Shown: positions 54,334 to 64,000 of the stretch, in pieces
Position numbering within the stretch: the first letter of the stretch is position 1
Layout of the letters: each line of letters opens with the position of its first letter
DNA from: Streptomyces sp. NBC_00193
GTDB taxonomy: Bacteria > Actinomycetota > Actinomycetes > Streptomycetales > Streptomycetaceae
Length of the DNA: 64,000 nucleotides
Direction of reading: 5' to 3'
Assembly: GCF_026342735.1 (NCBI RefSeq)
Contig: NZ_JAPEMM010000002.1
Coordinates: forward strand, 744,001-808,000
The notes under the pieces: model-generated
What the model was told of the DNA's origin: nothing
The model's input: the letters and a program-made list of their open reading frames with translations, nothing else
Database searches by the model: none
Position numbers and translations under genes: made by a program

Positions 54334-55302
54334 ATGCAGGCCTTGGCAACGGAGCCCGCCCGCCAGGCCCCTCCCGCCCAGCCGGCGAGCTTTATCCAGG
54401 AAGTCCTGCGCGGTGTCGCCCAGGTCGACTTCATGCCGAGCGCGATCACGGGCATCTTCTTCCTGGCCGCCCTTGCCGCCGCGGGCTGGCAGTACGCCCT
54501 CTACGGCCTCCTCGGCGCGGTCGTCGGCACCGGCACCGCCTACGCGTTCGGCATCGACCGCGAGATCGTCTCGGCCGGCCTGCGCGGTTTCAACGGCACC
54601 CTGGTCTCGCTCGGGTTCGCCGTCTTCCTCGGGTGGGACCACCTGTCCACGCTGCTGCTCGCGATCGGCGGAAGCATCACCGTGGTGGTCGTCACCTCGG
54701 CGCTGGCCACCATCCTCGGCACCTGGAACATCCCCACGTTCACCGCGCCGTTCTGCATCATCGCGAGCGTCATGACCATCGCGGCGCCCGGCTTCTCCCG
54801 GGTGTGGCACACCGGCCCCGATCTGGCGGCGCTGCCCGCGGCCGCGAGCGGGACCACCGCGCTGGACTGGGGCCAGCTCTGGCGCGCCTTCTTCGCCAAC
54901 GTCGGCCAGATCTTCTTCATGCCGCAGTGGTACGTCGGCCTGATCTTCCTCGCCGGCATCTTCGTGGCCAGCCGGGTCGCCGGGGTCATGGCCTGCGTCG
55001 GCAGCGTCACGGCGATCTTCGTCGCCTGGGCGATGGGTTCACCGTCCGAAGGCGTCTCGCAGGGGCTCATGGGGTACAGCAGCGTGCTCGTCGCGATGGC
55101 CCTGTGCGGGGTCTTCCTCGTCCCCTCCAACTGGAGCTTCGCCTTCGCCGTCCTGGGCGCCGCAGCGGCGACCGGGCTCACGGCCGCGATGACCGCCTTC
55201 TTCGCGCCGTTCGGCGGTCACACCTTCACCTGGCCGTTCGTCCTGACCACGGTCGTCTTCGTCGCCGCCGTCCCCCAGATCCCCCGGCTGCAACGGACCT
55301 GA
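54334..55302 (+). CDS. Urea transporter (UT family)
   Basis: 322-aa membrane channel of the UT family with two homologous halves (GLRGFNGTLVSLGFAVFLGW in the first, SQGLMGYSSVLVAMALCGVF in the second), each carrying the conserved N/Y-G-x-L/V-x-x-L/A pore signature. It admits urea down its gradient. ATG 54334 follows AGGGAGA. It heads the urease operon and is preceded by a hairpin/T-tract that could attenuate transcription. Only 84 bp separate it from ureA. Confidence 0.9.
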   Translation: MQALATEPARQAPPAQPASFIQEVLRGVAQVDFMPSAITGIFFLAALAAAGWQYALYGLLGAVVGTGTAYAFGIDREIVSAGLRGFNGTLVSLGFAVFLGWDHLSTLLLAIGGSITVVVVTSALATILGTWNIPTFTAPFCIIASVMTIAAPGFSRVWHTGPDLAALPAAASGTTALDWGQLWRAFFANVGQIFFMPQWYVGLIFLAGIFVASRVAGVMACVGSVTAIFVAWAMGSPSEGVSQGLMGYSSVLVAMALCGVFLVPSNWSFAFAVLGAAAATGLTAAMTAFFAPFGGHTFTWPFVLTTVVFVAAVPQIPRLQRT

Positions 55303-55386: not shown

Positions 55387-55692
55387 ATGAATCTCGCTCC
55401 CCGTGAGATGGACAAGCTCTGGATCTACGTCGTGGCCGACCTGGCGCGCAAGCGGCGGGACCGGGGCGTCAAGCTCAACTACAGCGAGGCCTGCGCCCTG
55501 ATCAGCGAGGGCATCCTCGAAGGCGCCCGTGACGGCAGGACCGTCGCCGAGTGCATGGAGCTCGGCAAGCAGATGGTCTCCGCCGCCGACGTCATGAAGG
55601 GCGTACGGGAGATGCTTCCGCTGCTCCAGGTCGAGGCCGCCTTCGTGGACGGCACCAAGCTCGTCTCCTGCCACGACCCCGTCGGCGCCTGA
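55387..55692 (+). CDS. ureA: Urease gamma subunit
   Basis: 101-aa structural subunit of nickel urease. The N-terminus [20 protein letters not shown] and the block [21 protein letters not shown] are diagnostic. Gamma, beta and alpha are separate genes as in most bacteria. In this operon the beta gene does not follow directly: a His-rich chelatase-like gene is inserted three bases after the ureA stop. Confidence 0.96.
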
Positions 55693-55695
55693 GCG

Positions 55696-56580
55696 GTGGC
55701 GGCCATCGCACCCGAACGGCCCGGCCGGGCAACGCAATCGGCGGCCCGCGTCATCCTGGCCGGCGGCCACGAGGGCGGCGCAGCGGCCGGCGCCGTACAC
55801 CCCGGCCGGCCGCTGGCCGAAGCCGTCCGCGCGGGGCTCGCCGCCTCGTCCGAACCGGTGTGCGTGGTCCCGATGACGCTGGGGCGCGACCCCGGGCTGA
55901 TCGCCGACTGCGCCCGCGCGCTGCGCTGGCTGAGCCGGGAGGAGGAGCCCGGGCGGCTCGTGCTGGCGCCGCCCTTCGCCACCGTGGACCACCTGACCGC
56001 GTGGCTCCGTACCGCCGCCCTCAAGGCGGTCCGCGAGGCTCCCGACACCTCCGCCGTGCTGGTCACCGCTCCCGCCGCGGGTCCCTTCGAGGACGCCGAT
56101 CTGTTCCGGGTGGCCCGGCTGGTGCGCCAGTACGGGCACCACCGCTGGGTCGAGGTCGCCTTCGACGGCGGCGACCCGGACCTGGCGGAGGGCGCGGAGC
56201 GGTGCCGCCGGCTCGGCGCCGGCCACGTCTCCCTGGTCCGGGCCGCGTTCGCCCCGCCCGCCGAACTCCCGTCGGGGGTCCTGGACACCGGTCCGCTGCT
56301 GTCCGACGCGGCGATCGCCCAGGTCGTACGGGCCCGCTCGCAGGAGGCCCTGCACCGGCTGGCCCACGGGCAGGACGGCGTGGCCGAGGGGCTGGACGCC
56401 GAACACGGGCACGGGTACGCGCACTCCCACGGCCCCGGCGGCGACCACGGCCATCACCACGGCCACGCGGACCCGGACGCACACGACACGGACCCGCACC
56501 ACACGCACGCGCACGGCGAGGGCCACCGGCACGCGCGCGGCCAGGGTCACGGCCACCCGCACGGCCATTCCCCCCACTGA
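55696..56580 (+). CDS. CbiX/sirohydrochlorin-chelatase-like protein with His-rich tail
   Basis: 294 aa. Residues about 18-230 resemble two halves of the CbiX/CfbA chelatase fold: [10 protein letters not shown] keeps the first active-site His (His25), while the second canonical His appears lost in [11 protein letters not shown]. The last 60 residues hold about 21 His among Gly/Asp/Ala (for example [15 protein letters not shown]), a metal-storage tail like that of UreE or HypB. It lies between ureA and ureB, 23 bp before ureB, in an operon with no ureE. I infer a nickel chaperone or store for urease. A role in cobalt or sirohaem insertion is possible but does not fit the context. Confidence 0.72.
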
Positions 56581-56603
56581 TCCGAAGGAAGGGAAGTACC
56601 ACC

Positions 56604-57185
56604 ATGTCAGGTGGCGCCACATACCTTTACGGCGAAGGCACCGTAGAGATCAACGCCGGCCGCCGCAAGGCCAAGGTCACCGTCTCCAACACCGGTGACC
56701 GTGCCGTCCAGGTCGGCTCGCACTACCACTTCTTCGAGGTCAACCGAGCCCTCGACTTCGACCGCAACGCCGCCTACGGCATGCACCTCGACCTCCCCGC
56801 CGGCACCGGCGTCCGCTTCGAGCCGGGCGACACCCGCGAGGTCGAACTCACCGCGTACAGCGGCCACGGCCGGCTGATCGGCTTCAGCTCCCTCGTCAAC
56901 GGCGGCCTCGGCTCCACCGACACCCGCGTCCGGGCGATGAACCGGGCGGTCGAGCTCGGATTCCTGGGAGCCCGTGCGGAGACGGCCCAGCAGGCCGCGG
57001 CGGCGCAGGCCGCCGCGCCCGCCGTGGAGGCCCCCTCGAAGCCGGGGTCCAGGCCGGGGTCCAAGCCGGCCTCGAAGCCCGCCGCCCGGCCCGCTGCCCA
57101 GCAGGCCGGCAAGCCCGCCGCCAAGGCACCCGCCAAGACCGCGGCCGCCAAGAAGGCCAAGACCTCCAAGAAGGGCGACAAGTAG
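56604..57185 (+). CDS. ureB: Urease beta subunit with Lys/Ala/Pro-rich extension
   Basis: 193 aa. Residues 1-115 are a standard UreB ([56 protein letters not shown]). The remaining roughly 75 residues are absent from most UreB proteins. They begin with an Ala/Gln segment and become a basic Lys/Pro/Ala tail ([35 protein letters not shown]), like histone H1 tails. ATG 56604 follows AAGGAAGGGA. ureC follows after two bases. Confidence 0.94.
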
Positions 57186-57187
57186 CG

Positions 57188-58912
57188 ATGGCTGTCCTGA
57201 GCCGCAAGCAGTACACCGACCTGTTCGGGCCGACCGTCGGCGACCGCTTCCACCTGGCGGACACCAACCTGGTCATCGAGGTCGAGAAGGACCACAACGA
57301 GGGCCACTACGGCGACGAGGCCGTCTACGGCGGCGGCAAGGGCATCCGCGACGGCATGGCGCAGGACCCGCAGGCCACGAACCTGCAGGGCGCCCTGGAC
57401 CTGGTCATCACCAACGTGGTGGTCATGGACGCGATCCTGGGTGTGGTCAAGGGCGACCTCGGCGTCAAGGACGGGTTCATCGCGGGTCTCGGCAAGGCCG
57501 GCAACCCGCACACCCAGTCCGGGGTGCACCCCAAGCTGGTCATCGGGCCCGGCACCGAGGTGATCTCGGGCGAGCACATGATCGCCACGGCCGGCGGCAT
57601 CGACACCCACATCCACTTCATCGCCCCGCAGCAGGCCGAGCACGGCCTGTCCAACGGCATCACCACCCTCATCGGCGGCGGCACCGGCCCCTCCGACGGC
57701 ACCAACGGCACCACGTGCACCCCGGGTCCGTGGAACATCGGGCGGATGTACCAGGCGGTCGAGGACCTGCCGGTCAACGTCGGCCTGCTGGGCAAGGGCA
57801 ACGGCTCGCTGCCGGAAGCGCTGATCGAGCAGGTCGAGGCGGGCGTCTGCGGCCTCAAGGTGCACGAGGACTGGGGCACCACCCCGGCCGCGCTGAGCAA
57901 GGCCCTGGACGTGGCCGACGCCTACGACGTGCAGGTCGCGGTGCACACGGACACCCTGAACGAGTCCGGCTTCTTCGAGGACACCCGCTCCGCCATCGAC
58001 GGGCGCACCATCCACACCTTCCACACCGAGGGCGCGGGCGGTGGCCACGCCCCCGACATCATGCGGGTGGCGGGCGAGCCCAACGTCCTGCCGTCCTCGA
58101 CCAACCCGACGCTGCCGTACACGGTGAACTCGGTCGACGAGCTCCTCGACATGGTGATGGTCTGTCACCACCTGTCGCACGACATCCCGGAGGACGTGTC
58201 CTTCGCGGACTCGCGCGTGCGCGCGGAGACGATCGCCGCCGAGACCGTGCTGCACGACGAGGGGGTCATCTCGATCTTCTCCTCCGACTCCCAGGCCATG
58301 GGCCGCATCGGCGAGTCCTGGACCCGCGCCTTCCAGACCGCGCACCACTGCAAGGACCAGCGCGGCAAGCTCGACGGCGACACCGAGCGCAACGACAACT
58401 TCCGCGCCCTGCGCTACCTCGCCAAGATCACGATCAACCCGGCGATCGCCTCGGGCACCGCCGAGCACATCGGCTCCCTGGAGACGGGCAAGCTCGCCGA
58501 CATCGTGCTGTGGCCGATCGGCTCCTTCGCCGCGAAGCCGAAGATGGTCATCAAGGGCGGCCTGATCAACTGGGCGCTGATGGGCGACCCGAACGCCTCC
58601 CTCCCGACCCCGCAACCGGTCTACTACCGGCCGATGTTCGGTGCCTACGGCAAGGCCAAGCAGGCCACCCGGGTCTCCTTCATGTCGCAGGCCGCGATCG
58701 AGCTCGGCGTACCGCAGAAGCTGGGCCTGGACAGCAAGGTCCTGCCGGTCCGGCACTGCCGCACCGTCGGCAAGCAGCACATGGTCCGCAACGACGCCCT
58801 CCCGGTCATCACGGTCGACCCGGAGACCTACAAGGTCACCCTCGACGGGGTACCGGCCACCATCGAACCGGCCCGCGAGCTGCCCCTGAACCACCTGTTC
58901 TACCTGGCATGA
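57188..58912 (+). CDS. ureC: Urease alpha (catalytic) subunit
   Basis: 574-aa nickel amidohydrolase that splits urea into ammonia and carbamate. All active-site residues are in place by alignment with the Klebsiella enzyme: His141 and His143 (THIHF), carbamylated Lys224 (GLKVHEDWG), His226, His253, His279 and Asp367 (SSDSQAMGR) around the two nickels. The mobile flap holds Cys326, His327 and Arg343. Its TGA overlaps the ureF ATG (ATGA). Confidence 0.97.
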
Positions 58913-59640
58913 GCACTGCCGCCAACGCCGCCGTGTCCAGCCCCGCGGCGGCGACGCCGGTACAGGCCCTGCTGGTCAGCCTCCAGCTCACCGACTCGGC
59001 CTTCCCCAGCGGCTTCTACACCCTCTCCCACGGCCTGGAGGGCTACGCCCAGGCCAAGGCCGTGACCCCCGAGGGCGTACCCGTACTGCTGGCCGACCTG
59101 CTGCGGCACGCGGTGGGGCCTTCCGACGCCACCGCGCTGGCCCTGGCCCACCGGGCGGCGCTGGCCGGCGACTGGGAGGCCCTGGCCGAGACCGACCGGC
59201 GGCTGAACGCGGGCAAGCTGAACGAGGGCCTGCGCCGCGCCGCCACCCGCACCGGCCGCCAGCTGCTGGACCTCGCCCGCGAGTGCGTCGGCGGCGAGCC
59301 ACTGGAGCGGTACGCGGAGCTCGTGGCGGCCAAGCGGGCCCCCGGCTCGCAGGCCGTCGCCGCCGGGGTCGCGTACGCGGCCGCCGGCGTCCCGGCCGAA
59401 CAGGCCGTTGTGAGCGATCTGTTCGCCTACTCGGCCAGCTTCACCGGGGCCGCGCTGCGGCTGCGGCTCACGGACCATCGCAAGGCACAGGTGGTGCTGC
59501 GCGGGATCGCACCCGTCATCGAGGAGGTGGCGCAGGCGGCCCTGCGCCGCGAACTCGGGGATCTCGGCGGGTGCGTTCCGATGGCCGATGTGATGTCGGG
59601 CCGTCACGAGCGGGCCGAGGCAAGGCTGTTCGCCACCTGA
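58909..59640 (+). CDS. ureF: Urease accessory protein UreF
   Basis: 243-aa accessory protein that binds UreD and recruits UreG during nickel insertion. [20 protein letters not shown] is the diagnostic opening, and the protein is helical throughout. The start overlaps the ureC stop, so translation is coupled. ureG begins about 80 bp later. Confidence 0.92.
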
Positions 59641-59718
59641 CCTGGTCCATCGATGCTCCTCCCCCTCTTTCCTGACCCCTTTGTCCAAGCTCTCCTTTCC
59701 CCAAGGTGCGTGACTTTG

Positions 59719-60342
59719 ATGACCGAGGACAACGTCCTGCGCGTCGGCGTCGGCGGCCCCGTCGGCTCCGGCAAGACCGCGCTGATCGAGGCCCTGGTAC
59801 CGGTGCTGATCGCGCGAGGCCACCGGCCCGCCGTGATCACCAACGACATCTACACCCAGGAGGACGCCCGCCAGGTCCGCCGCACGCTGGCCGGGGTGCT
59901 CGACCCCGAGCGCGTCGTGGGCGTGGAGACCGGTGCGTGCCCGCACACCGCAGTGCGCGACGACCCGACGATGAACCTGGCCGCGGGCGCCGAGATGCTG
60001 GAGCGGTTCCCCGATGTCGACACCCTGCTCTACGAGTCGGGCGGCGACAACCTCACCCTCACCTTCAGCCCGGTCCTGGTCGACCTGTTCCTCTTCGTCC
60101 TGGACACCGCCGAGGGCGAGAAGATGCCCCGCAAGCGCGGTCCGGGCATCACCGAGTCCGACCTGCTCGTGATCAACAAGATCGACATCGCCCAGTACGT
60201 CCGCTGCGACATCGGCGTCATGGAGTCCGACGCGCACCGCGTGCGCGAGGGGCGCCCCGTGGTCCTGACCAACTGCCTCACCGGGCAGGGCCTGGAGGAC
60301 GTGGCCACCTTCATCGAGTCCTTCCGCCGGGTGCCGGCGTGA
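59719..60342 (+). CDS. ureG: Urease accessory GTPase UreG
   Basis: 207-aa SIMIBI GTPase that delivers nickel to the apo-urease-FD complex. The P-loop is GGPVGSGKTALIEAL, the nickel-binding CPH motif is GACPHTAVRDD, and ESGGDNL and NKIDIA are G-motifs. Unlike some UreG proteins it has no N-terminal His-rich region, consistent with metal storage being located in the CbiX-like protein. ATG 59719 was used; a GTG at 59710 is possible. Its stop overlaps the ureD start (GTGA). Confidence 0.94.
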   Translation: MTEDNVLRVGVGGPVGSGKTALIEALVPVLIARGHRPAVITNDIYTQEDARQVRRTLAGVLDPERVVGVETGACPHTAVRDDPTMNLAAGAEMLERFPDVDTLLYESGGDNLTLTFSPVLVDLFLFVLDTAEGEKMPRKRGPGITESDLLVINKIDIAQYVRCDIGVMESDAHRVREGRPVVLTNCLTGQGLEDVATFIESFRRVPA

Positions 60343-61358
60343 GCGTCGTGGCAGATCCGCCCCGCACCCCGCCGCAGGCTCCGCCCCCCGCCCCGCCCCG
60401 CGCCCTCCTGCCGCCCGGGCGTCTGGAGGCCGCGCACTACGAACCGCCGCGCGTCCCCCTGGAGGTGCTGCGGCACTCCTCGGTGCCCGACACCCTCGGT
60501 GTCGGGCGCCCCGGCAAGGTGGGGCTGCTGGAGTTGGGCTTCGAGCTGGTCGGCGGGCGCACGGAGCTGGTGCGGCACTACCAGAAGTCCCCGCTCCAGA
60601 TCATGCGGCCGCTCTACTTCGACCCGCACCGCCCCGACCTGCCCATCACCTTCCTGATGTCCACGGGCGGCGGGGTCATCCAGGCCGACCGGCTGCGCAC
60701 CGACCTGTCCTTCGGCCCCGGCACCTCGGGGCACGTCACCACGCAGGCGGCCACCAAGGTCTACCGGATGGAGCACGACTACGCCGTCGCCCAGACCTTC
60801 TTGACCGCCGGCCCGGGCGCGTACGTCGAGTACCTGCCGGATCCGGTCATCCCCTACGTCGACTCCCGCTTCTACCAGCGCACTGTGATCACCGCCGCCC
60901 CCACGGCCACCGTGCTGGCGAGCGAGACCGTCCTGGCCGGCCGGCTGGCGCACGGCGAGCGCAACGCCTACCAGGTCTTCGCTTCCGACCTCGAACTGCG
61001 CCGACCGGACGGTGAGTTGGTGGCGCTGGACGCCGTACGGCTGGAACCGGGCGGGGCCGGGGAGTCCGGCGGCAGCTCCGTCGACGGGCCCGCCGTACTG
61101 GCCGGCCATTCGGTGATGGCCTGCTTCTTCGCGGTCAGCCCGCTCGCCCCGGCCCGCGAGCTCGCCGACCTGCTGCACACGACCCTGGCCGGCCGCGGAC
61201 TCCCGTACGGGGTCAGCGTGCTGCCGCAGGACTGCGGGGCCTGGGTGCGGGTGCTCGGGGAGCACACCGAGGCCGTGACCCGGTCGCTCGCGGCCGTCTG
61301 GGACGCGGTGCGGCGCAGGTTGATCGGCGTCCCCGCACCGGACCTGCGCAAGACCTGA
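60339..61358 (+). CDS. ureD: Urease accessory protein UreD (UreH)
   Basis: 339-aa scaffold protein that binds apo-urease and passes nickel from UreG/UreF. Family segments include ITFLMSTGGGVIQADRLRTD, THE-type TTQAATKVYRMEHDYA and YLPDPVIPYVDSRFYQ. A Pro-rich N-terminal stretch of about 25 residues precedes the domain. GTG 60339 overlaps the ureG stop. It is the last urease-assembly gene; no ureE was found in the operon. Confidence 0.92.
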   Translation: MSVVADPPRTPPQAPPPAPPRALLPPGRLEAAHYEPPRVPLEVLRHSSVPDTLGVGRPGKVGLLELGFELVGGRTELVRHYQKSPLQIMRPLYFDPHRPDLPITFLMSTGGGVIQADRLRTDLSFGPGTSGHVTTQAATKVYRMEHDYAVAQTFLTAGPGAYVEYLPDPVIPYVDSRFYQRTVITAAPTATVLASETVLAGRLAHGERNAYQVFASDLELRRPDGELVALDAVRLEPGGAGESGGSSVDGPAVLAGHSVMACFFAVSPLAPARELADLLHTTLAGRGLPYGVSVLPQDCGAWVRVLGEHTEAVTRSLAAVWDAVRRRLIGVPAPDLRKT

Positions 61359-61406: not shown

Positions 61407-62780
61407 ATGCCCAGTGGCTACGATACGGGTAATACCGCCTGGATGATGGCGAGCACCGCCATGGTGCTGCTGATGACCCCCGGCCTCGCCTTCTTCTACG
61501 GGGGCATGGTCCAAACCAAGCACGTGCTGGTGATGCTCAAGATGAGCTTCGCCTGCCTGTCGCTGGTGACCATCCTGTGGGTCGCGGTCGGCTACTCCCT
61601 CGCCTTCGGCAAGGACTCCGGCGGCGGCATGATCGGCAATCTCGACTACGCCTTCTTCCGCGGCATCGGGATGGACTCCCTGCACGGCTCCATCCCGACG
61701 GTGATCTTCGCCTGCTTCCAGATGTCCTTCGCGATCATCACGGTGGCGCTGATCAGCGGCTCCATCGCGGGCCGCGCCACCATGAAGGGCTGGCTGGTCT
61801 TCGTCGTCGCCTGGACCATGCTGGTCTACGTGCCCACCGCGCACTGGGTGTTCGCCCCCGACGGCTGGATCAACAAGTCCCTGGGCGCGCTCGACTACGC
61901 CGGCGGTCTGCCGGTCGAGCTCAGCTCGGGGGCCTCGGGCCTCGCGGTGGCCATCGTGCTGCGCAAGCGCAAGGACTTCGAGCGCGAGACGATCCGACCG
62001 CACAACCTGCCCCTGGTCATCATCGGTCTGGCGCTGCTGTGGTTCGGCTGGTTCGGCTTCAACGCGGGCTCCGCGCTCCAGGTCGAGGGCAGCGCACCGA
62101 CCACCTTCTTCAACACCCAACTGGCCGCCGCGGGCGCGATGATCGGCTGGCCGATCATCGAGAAGTGGCGGCTGGGCCACGTGGAGATGCTGGGCGTGGC
62201 CTCGGCCGCGGTCGCCGGCATGGTGGCCATCACCCCCGCCTGCGGCGAGGTCTCCCCGCTCGGCGCGCTGATCATCGGCTTCACCGCCGGTGTGGTCTGC
62301 TGCTTCGCCATCAACATGAAGTTCAAGATCGGCGTCGACGACACCCTCGACGTGGTCGGCGTGCACGGCTGGGGCGGCATCGTCGGCGTCCTCTCCATCG
62401 GCTTCTTCGCGACGGCCGCGATGAGCGGCAAGAAGGGCCTCTTCTACGGGGGCGGACTGGACCAGTTGTGGCGTCAGGCCGTCGGGGTCCTGGCGGTCGG
62501 CTCCTTCGCCTTCGTCATGACCTGGCTCATCGCCAAGGCGATCGACAAGGCCGTCGGCTTCCGCACCTCGGAGGAGTACGAGAACGTACCCGGCCGGGAC
62601 GAGGAGGTCGCCTACGACAACGCCACCCTGGACGAGATCCGCGACCGGATCGGCGGAGCCGGTGCCGCGCCCCGAGAGCCCGCCGCGGTGGGCGCCGCCC
62701 AGGGCGCGTCGGAGCGGCAGGACGCCGCGCTGCTCGCCGAAATCGTATCCGTGCTGGACCGACGAGAGCGTGACAAGTGA
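61407..62780 (+). CDS. amt: Ammonium transporter (Amt), first copy
   Basis: 457-aa, 11-helix Amt/Mep channel (PGLAFFYGGMVQTKHVLVML; LWFGWFGFNAGSALQ; VVGVHGWGGIVG). The second pore His is present (His320), but the first of the twin-His pair is Glu171 (GGLPVELSSGASGL), as in some fungal Mep proteins. The C-terminal tail is longer than usual and acidic. It lies 48 bp after ureD and probably recaptures ammonia made by urease. No GlnK gene is seen before the window ends. A second amt gene overlaps its stop. Confidence 0.93.
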   Translation: MPSGYDTGNTAWMMASTAMVLLMTPGLAFFYGGMVQTKHVLVMLKMSFACLSLVTILWVAVGYSLAFGKDSGGGMIGNLDYAFFRGIGMDSLHGSIPTVIFACFQMSFAIITVALISGSIAGRATMKGWLVFVVAWTMLVYVPTAHWVFAPDGWINKSLGALDYAGGLPVELSSGASGLAVAIVLRKRKDFERETIRPHNLPLVIIGLALLWFGWFGFNAGSALQVEGSAPTTFFNTQLAAAGAMIGWPIIEKWRLGHVEMLGVASAAVAGMVAITPACGEVSPLGALIIGFTAGVVCCFAINMKFKIGVDDTLDVVGVHGWGGIVGVLSIGFFATAAMSGKKGLFYGGGLDQLWRQAVGVLAVGSFAFVMTWLIAKAIDKAVGFRTSEEYENVPGRDEEVAYDNATLDEIRDRIGGAGAAPREPAAVGAAQGASERQDAALLAEIVSVLDRRERDK

Positions 62781-64000
62781 CCGCGCACACGATTGCCGAC
62801 ACCGTGTCGGCGGTCTCCGCCGCACCCGCCGTCGCCGACTCCGGCAACGCGTCCTGGCTGATGATGGCCACGGCGCTGGTGCTGCTGATGGCTCCCGGAG
62901 TGGCCTTCTTCTACGGCGGCATGGTCCGCACCGGCCAGATCGTCGCCATGCTGAAGATGATCTTCTTCTGCATGGTGATCGTCACCGTGCTCTGGTTCGC
63001 GATCGGCTACTCCCTGGCCTTCGGCCCGGATGCCGGCGGGCTCGGGGTCATCGGCACGCTCGACCACGCCTTCCTGCGCGGGATCGATGCCCGGTCGCTG
63101 ACCGGCTCCGTGCCCACGGTCACCTTCGTGGTCTTCCACCTGTCCTTCGCGGTCGTCACCGTGGCCCTGATCGCCGGCTCCATCGCGGGCCGCGCGAAGA
63201 TGGGCGGCTGGATCGCCTTCGTCATCGCATGGACCCTGCTGGTCTACATCCCCATGGCCCACTGGGTGTTCGACCCGGCCGGCTGGGTCGCCAAGCAGCT
63301 CGGCGCCGTCGACTTCTCCGGCGGCACCGTCGTGGAGATCGGATCGGGGGCCGCCGGACTCGCCCTCGCCATCGTCGCGGGAAAGCGGGCGGACTTCGAC
63401 CGCCAGGGCATCCGGCCGCACAACCTGCCGCTCGTGGTCATCGGGCTGTCCCTCATGTGGTTCGGCTGGTTCGGCTTCAACACCGGTTCCTCCCTGGAGA
63501 CCCCGGGCGGCGCGGCGATGGCCTTCCTCAACAGCCAGCTCGCGGCGGGCGCGGCGATGGCCGGCTGGGCGGTGACCAGTTGGTGGCGCACCCGGCAGGT
63601 CGGCCTGCTCGACATGTGCATGGGCGCCGTCACCGGACTGGTCGCCATGACCCCGCTGGCCGGCGGGGTGAGCCCGGTATGGGCCACCGTCATCGGTTTC
63701 CTCGCCGGGCTGACCTGCGCGTTCGCGATCAGCTGGAAGTACCGGCTGGGCGTGGACGACACCCTGGACGTGGTGGGCATCCACGGCTGGGGCGGCATCG
63801 TCGGCATGGTCATGGCCGGCCTCTGCGCGACCGGGACGCTGACGGGCCACAAGGGCCTCTTCTACGGCGGCTCCTGGGACCTGCTGAGCAAGCAGCTCAC
63901 CGCCACGGTGGTGCTCGGGCTGTTCTCGTTCGTGATGACCGCACTGATCGGCAAGGCCATCGAGGTCACCATCGGGCTGCGCCAGCCCGGCGCCATGGTG
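62777..64000 (+). CDS. amt: Ammonium transporter (Amt), second copy, cut by window end
   Basis: 408 codons are visible with no stop. GTG 62777 overlaps the first amt stop (GTGA). The core has AFFYGGMVRTGQIVAMLK and VVGIHGWGGIVG with His336. The first twin-His position is again Glu (Glu187 in GGTVVEIGSGAAGL). The N-terminus is about 20 residues longer than in the first copy and is weakly hydrophobic. Similarity to the first copy is clear along the whole length, so this is a tandem paralogue pair of some age. Confidence 0.92.
   Translation, partial: MTAHTIADTVSAVSAAPAVADSGNASWLMMATALVLLMAPGVAFFYGGMVRTGQIVAMLKMIFFCMVIVTVLWFAIGYSLAFGPDAGGLGVIGTLDHAFLRGIDARSLTGSVPTVTFVVFHLSFAVVTVALIAGSIAGRAKMGGWIAFVIAWTLLVYIPMAHWVFDPAGWVAKQLGAVDFSGGTVVEIGSGAAGLALAIVAGKRADFDRQGIRPHNLPLVVIGLSLMWFGWFGFNTGSSLETPGGAAMAFLNSQLAAGAAMAGWAVTSWWRTRQVGLLDMCMGAVTGLVAMTPLAGGVSPVWATVIGFLAGLTCAFAISWKYRLGVDDTLDVVGIHGWGGIVGMVMAGLCATGTLTGHKGLFYGGSWDLLSKQLTATVVLGLFSFVMTALIGKAIEVTIGLRQPGAMV

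Follow-up and report, generated by a model that had tools for sequence, protein, structure and literature searches.

A histidine-rich, CbiX-related protein encoded between ureA and ureB as a candidate nickel carrier for urease in Streptomyces

A histidine-rich protein of 294 residues (hereafter X) is encoded between ureA and ureB in a urease operon of Streptomyces sp. NBC_00193, and sequence comparison suggests, with a probability of roughly 0.7, that it descends from a long-type CbiX cobaltochelatase and serves urease maturation as a nickel metallochaperone. What is informative is that X operons, besides having no UreE, are without the UreG His tail found in nearly all other UreE-less operons read. 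The computed support for the carrier reading consists of homology to chelatases, the predicted fold, the lost catalytic His, the kept His tail, the ureA/ureB context and the exclusion pattern; counted against it are the single clade formed by the X operons, the operon L131, and the His gained when the furthest UreG start is taken.

The window, i.e., the whole stretch of 64,000 nucleotides that was analysed, belongs to a genome of 8.0 Mb in 4 contigs. Open reading frames, Pfam and NCBIfam matches, and tblastn, in which the window's own proteins were run against other loci, delimit a nitrogen module on the + strand that runs from a UT urea transporter through the urease genes to amtB:

54334..55302, + strand: UT-type urea transporter (Pfam PF03253; start picked by eye)
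55387..55692, + strand: ureA, urease gamma (Pfam PF00547; TIGR00193, NF009712)
55696..56580, + strand: X, His-rich CbiX/SirB-like protein of 294 aa (core about residues 15-235, tail about 236-294)
56401..56577, + strand: His-rich C-terminal tail of X, residues 236-294, with 21 His by count
56604..57185, + strand: ureB, urease beta, with a C-terminal extension rich in Lys/Ala/Pro (Pfam PF00699)
57188..58912, + strand: ureC, urease alpha (Pfam PF00449, PF01979)
58909..59640, + strand: ureF (4-nt overlap with the ureC stop; start picked by eye; named from its position and conserved place)
59719..60342, + strand: ureG, without a His tail (TIGR00101; conserved ATG; a longer frame begins at 59653)
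60339..61358, + strand: ureD (GTG start picked by eye; named from its position and conserved place)
61407..62780, + strand: amtB, ammonium transporter (Pfam PF00909)

The GTG start of X lies 3 nt past the ureA stop and its end lies 23 nt ahead of ureB, and the same evidence bears out the order ureA-X-ureB-ureC-ureF-ureG-ureD with short gaps that a first-pass annotation of this DNA had described; ureF and ureD are identified by their position and by matches at the corresponding places of related operons. Behind amtB, a second amtB-like frame lies in tandem at 62783-64000, toward the window end (by eye), and two amtB each are likewise present at loci L074 and L075. The absence of ureE and of a His-rich UreG N-terminus, both asserted earlier, also held up: UreE_N reached its cut-off nowhere in the window's genome in a profile search, and the window UreG has zero His ahead of its P-loop, whether the start is placed at 59653 or at the conserved ATG at 59719.

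The same genome contains other urease loci. At L077 (G000:C1), ureG has a His-rich N-terminus, and this UreG could serve in trans, which counts against the carrier reading. L078 (G000:C1) has ureA, ureB and ureC matches, with no accessory gene matched nearby. A fourth ureC-like region lies at about 7356-8688 of L079 (G000:C2:1379000-1395000), where UreC matches occur in pieces, in different frames and with a gap, and it may be a broken gene.

X contains 29 His, of which exactly 21, the number estimated in the first-pass annotation, fall within the last 60 residues; the binomial chance of such a tail is about 2e-19 at an assumed His frequency of 2.35%. The tail is kept in its relatives, since 42 distinct X ORFs read to their stop have 8 to 33 His after the core (median 17), the upper value being inflated by at least one "tail" of 792 aa that is an ORF running on, and one read-through ORF and three ORFs missed by the pattern being left out of the count. 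No Cys follows the core in 41/42 of these tails. The tail was probably inherited from the CbiX ancestor because long-type actinobacterial CbiX proteins often carry one, as judged by eye and from the available part of a review (PMC7689651).

Domain libraries place X only remotely. The Pfam CbiX model scored 15.3-16.2 bits on X, below its cut-off of 22, NCBIfam gave no match, and no UreE domain was matched in Pfam or NCBIfam up to E 5 and E 1. A sequence search of solved structures with the X protein returned no chelatase, nor did one with a 13-row X profile, whose single match was unrelated (E 0.17); a fold comparison was therefore needed. The X core modelled from 13 sequences reached a pLDDT of 75.2 and a pTM of 0.73, with two of the five models above 68 and the remaining ones near 45. 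Its best structural match was SirB (Z 12.7, rmsd 4.4, 214 aligned), followed by CbiK (Z 12.1), CbiX (11.0) and ferrochelatases (about 10); the comparison with CfbA and CbiX, proposed earlier as a check, thus gave for CfbA a Z of 10.1 over 100 residues, i.e., one lobe. Foldseek gave modest E-values, 4e-4 at best. Meanwhile, the X profile aligned with that of seven actinobacterial CbiX proteins with a probability of 97.3 over 180 columns and an E of 2e-11 for a single comparison. The X core is accordingly predicted to adopt the two-lobed class II chelatase fold of CbiX, SirB, CbiK and CfbA, and at the level of sequence profiles X is homologous to actinobacterial CbiX proteins. The earlier label "CbiX-like" thus stands as remote homology, through profile-profile and fold comparison, but not as a library match, and both comparisons agree with the suggested origin in a tetrapyrrole chelatase.

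By eye, actinobacterial CbiX proteins have the motifs GHG(T/S)R and (A/S)GHxKGDIP-like, an NCDxC-like Cys motif, and an end that is His-rich to a varying degree. The first motif of X reads GHE, and its H25 was equated with the first catalytic His by eye, as the profile alignment begins at residue 40. Residue 67 of X occupies the place of the second catalytic His in the alignment; it is variable and never His in the 17/17 aligned X proteins, so that the loss of the second active-site His, suspected from a single sequence, is general in this alignment; D65 and H99 are invariant in the 17 sequences, and X does not have the pair of catalytic His in one lobe. It is highly improbable that X is an active chelatase that inserts nickel or cobalt into a tetrapyrrole: the predicted fold is shared with SirB, CbiK, CbiX and CfbA and one catalytic His position is kept (by eye), but the other is the residue 67 just described, and the metal site of SirB uses His10, Glu43 and His76 according to the available part of its description (PMC11301274). 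Three more CbiX-family proteins are encoded in the window's genome, and by eye both His motifs are retained in them; a role of X in siroheme or cobalamin synthesis is therefore unlikely. Among the neighbours of X in the operons read, no tetrapyrrole gene was noticed.

X is conserved beyond the window. A core scan with short peptide patterns, with one genome per species and covering close relatives, found it in 12 loci, all Streptomyces. A 13-row profile then placed it in 26/295 Streptomyces genomes at E 2.4e-31 or better, one of them with two copies, and in 5/394 genomes of the class at E 7.9e-47 or better, three of which represent other genera (two other families). With a 17-row profile, X was found in 32/150 genomes of the family at E 1e-12; 18 new loci from these genomes were read and 12 were unread. 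The 17-row profile also matched 3/296 genomes of a phylum sample, one of which (G922, E 4e-13) was rejected as an ordinary CbiX that keeps both His motifs (by eye). These 296 genomes, a sparse sample in which three known X genera were also missed, yielded no X from beyond the class. Weak profile matches (E 4e-11 to 3e-4 in the genus, E 1.4e-10 and weaker in the class) were not counted as X. Eighteen of them were read and by eye look like CbiX paralogues, some degenerate, and one weak match (G191) is a decayed X.

The position of X is constant. In the overlapping sets of copies inspected, ureA lies directly upstream in 12/12, 26/26, 4/4 and 18/18, and ureB lies downstream in 10/12, 23/26, 4/4 and 18/18, the remainder being at contig edges; no locus read had an X apart from urease genes. 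The proposed search of other actinomycete urease operons thus revealed a conserved family between ureA and ureB. Several side observations were made at individual loci. The decayed Streptomyces locus (L074, G191) retains ureA, an X fragment and the two amtB mentioned above, and a decayed locus on the Embleya plasmid NZ_CP108777.1 (L222) keeps X and ureB, retains just fragments of ureA and UT, and gave no ureC match. At X, the two plasmid records carry no annotated features. At L208 (G1003), a single open frame spans X and UreB, either a fusion or an assembly error; a fusion is doubtful, since the genome is 76% complete and the ORF continues beyond UreB. Six loci of another family (L059, L060, L063, L066, L068 and L069) hold CbiX-like paralogues with GQGS replacing GHGS, no second-motif His and no His tail, and by eye these form another degenerate chelatase group.

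UreB is longer in X operons than in most others, at 129-209 residues from the first aligned residue compared with medians of 101 and 112. In Streptomyces, its C-terminal extension is Lys-rich and often ends in KKG plus two residues, which is not seen in other genera; a rule that X goes with a Lys-rich UreB tail fitted the first set and was broken by other genera of the family. Together with the constant slot between ureA and ureB, the longer UreB would suit a protein that mainly acts as an assembly or scaffold factor for UreA and UreB of this urease type, with metal binding by the tail as a secondary matter. Such a role is nevertheless improbable, because other ureases assemble their UreA and UreB in the absence of X, the UreB extension is not of one kind across the family, and the missing UreG His tail is left unexplained.

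The relationship of X to the other His-rich elements of urease operons was then counted. UreE_N exceeded its cut-off in 7/394 class genomes when the best 15 candidates per genome were scored, and ureA was present in 169/394; a missing UreE is thus normal in the class, and its absence from X operons says little by itself. UreE was found in none of 59 X genomes: 0/54 with all or nearly all candidates scored, and 0/5 in the class sample, among which is the window's genome, with the best 15 candidates per genome scored. The operon survey took in 80 ureA stretches, hand-picked among the matches listed and spanning many families, together with the X, UreE and own-genome operons and the 12 loci of the core scan, and left out five loci without ureA or ureC (L010, L012, L074, L076 and L174). 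It yielded 36 X operons, 8 UreE operons, 79 with neither and none with both X and UreE, so the mutual exclusivity with ureE raised in the first-pass annotation was seen in every X genome scored and in all surveyed X operons.

After removal of identical-UreC rows and of nine operons without a readable UreG, 110 distinct operons were kept. UreG tail His are zero in 32/32 X operons and in 8/8 UreE operons, and number at least two in 66/70 (nearest start) or 69/70 (furthest start) operons with neither; the furthest start also adds 1-3 UreG His in 4/32 X operons and 1/8 UreE operons. By eye, the X-operon UreG proteins all share the short start, which lies about 8-9 residues ahead of the P-loop. Among the operons with neither X nor UreE, 45 have a GSGKT-type UreG with 1-9 N-terminal His, three have a GTGKT type, and the GTGKS type has 3-19 C-terminal His in 22/22 (L080-L087, L094, L095, L100, L104, L107, L112, L127, L128, L135, L137-L139, L141 and L142); a UreG group without any His element, suggested by N-termini alone, was dropped on the strength of these C-termini. 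L131 has neither X nor UreE, and one UreG tail His even with the furthest start, which means that a His element is not strictly necessary.

A 2009 study reported, as far as its available part goes, that in genomes without UreE the N- or C-terminus of UreG bears a His stretch; the two exceptions, Bradyrhizobium japonicum and Frankia CcI3, have neither UreE nor the stretch (PMC2770081). X supplies a His-rich element in 32/32 operons where UreE is absent, with at least 8 tail His throughout the 42 ORFs, and on these counts it fits as a third alternative under the published rule. The earlier proposal of X as a replacement for UreE was right in that no UreE was found alongside X, but it needs widening, as UreE absence is normal in the class and the UreG His tail is missing too. 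The evidence partly supports a reading in which X takes the place of the His-rich element usual in other urease operons, be it UreE or, mostly in this class, the UreG tail.

A tail with at least 8 His in 42/42 X proteins fits storage as well as delivery, and X might be a store or buffer for nickel, or for zinc or cobalt, that sits in the operon with no handover to the urease complex. According to the portion of the review available (PMC7689651), the C-terminal extension of Bacillus megaterium CbiX combines a 4Fe-4S centre with a long stretch rich in His; cobalt insertion persists when this stretch is deleted, and its function in storing and delivering metal is itself no more than a proposal. 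A plain store is rather unlikely here, as a general store need not keep to the ureA-ureB slot and need not exclude UreE and the UreG His tail.

The weight of the exclusion pattern depends on descent. A quickly built UreC tree with 117 rows places the X operons in one group (one change, support 100), and the pattern therefore counts as one origin, not as 32 independent cases. UreE operons lie near the X group, and operons with a His-tailed UreG form another large group; with 92-93% SH-aLRT at deep forks, a midpoint root and a long-branch warning, the tree supports no claim as to which state came first. Pairwise distances of X and UreC are correlated across 29 of the 32 distinct X operons, three being left out (r 0.888; 0/2000 permutations as high), and the lowest identity among these 29 is 39% for the X core and 69% for UreC. 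What supports X is thus a single origin that has persisted through much divergence.

If X is a nickel carrier, its tail would collect or store several Ni2+, and the core site at H25-E26, perhaps with D65 and H99, would hold one Ni2+ more specifically. Docked on apo-urease or the UreD/F/G complex, X would hand Ni2+ to UreG within the UreD/F/G-urease complex, filling the role that UreE or the UreG His tail has elsewhere. We infer the identity of the metal, its storage, the docking and the transfer, and the metal could be zinc or cobalt instead. There is a somewhat better than even chance that a cobalt-inserting enzyme was turned into a protein metallochaperone, with the chelatase site lost and the His tail kept, and that X represents a third independent nickel route as a partner of UreG or apo-urease.

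For urease nickel supply without UreE, the UreG His stretch is the proposed answer, with unexplained exceptions, in the available part of the 2009 study (PMC2770081); X is a concrete, testable candidate for one lineage that has neither. If the carrier reading is true, X would show how a ring-metallating enzyme can turn into a carrier delivering metal to a protein, and it offers a comparison of which part of a urease chaperone matters: the tail, the core site or the docking surface. The principle of a His-rich nickel-binding element replacing UreE is already known. A separate chelatase-derived protein in UreE's place did not turn up in full-text searches of an open-access library, outside which most subscription papers and preprints lie, nor in the passages of papers that were read.

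Among known systems, the long-type CbiX proteins of actinobacteria and Bacillus megaterium are homologous to X and share with it the two-lobed class II chelatase fold, predicted for X, and a His-rich C-terminal tail, whereas X lacks the second catalytic His and, by eye, the NCDxC-kind Cys motif before the tail, and is found in urease operons; X looks like the B. megaterium CbiX with the chelatase disabled and the store kept. UreE resembles X in its His-rich C-terminus, which ends in short His runs, in its place in a urease operon and in its company of a UreG without a His tail, but X has no UreE domain and occupies another place in the operon. The UreE fold differs from the predicted chelatase-type fold of X. 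The His-tailed UreG is, like X, a proposed UreE substitute in the part of the source available (PMC2770081), but there the tail is on a GTPase, whereas X is a separate protein and the UreG of X operons has no tail. CfbA, the nickel chelatase of coenzyme F430 synthesis, has a related predicted fold and is itself linked to nickel; it is a short, homodimeric protein in which His and Glu occur in two sets, as given in the available part of PMC11301274, whereas X has two predicted lobes and keeps one His.
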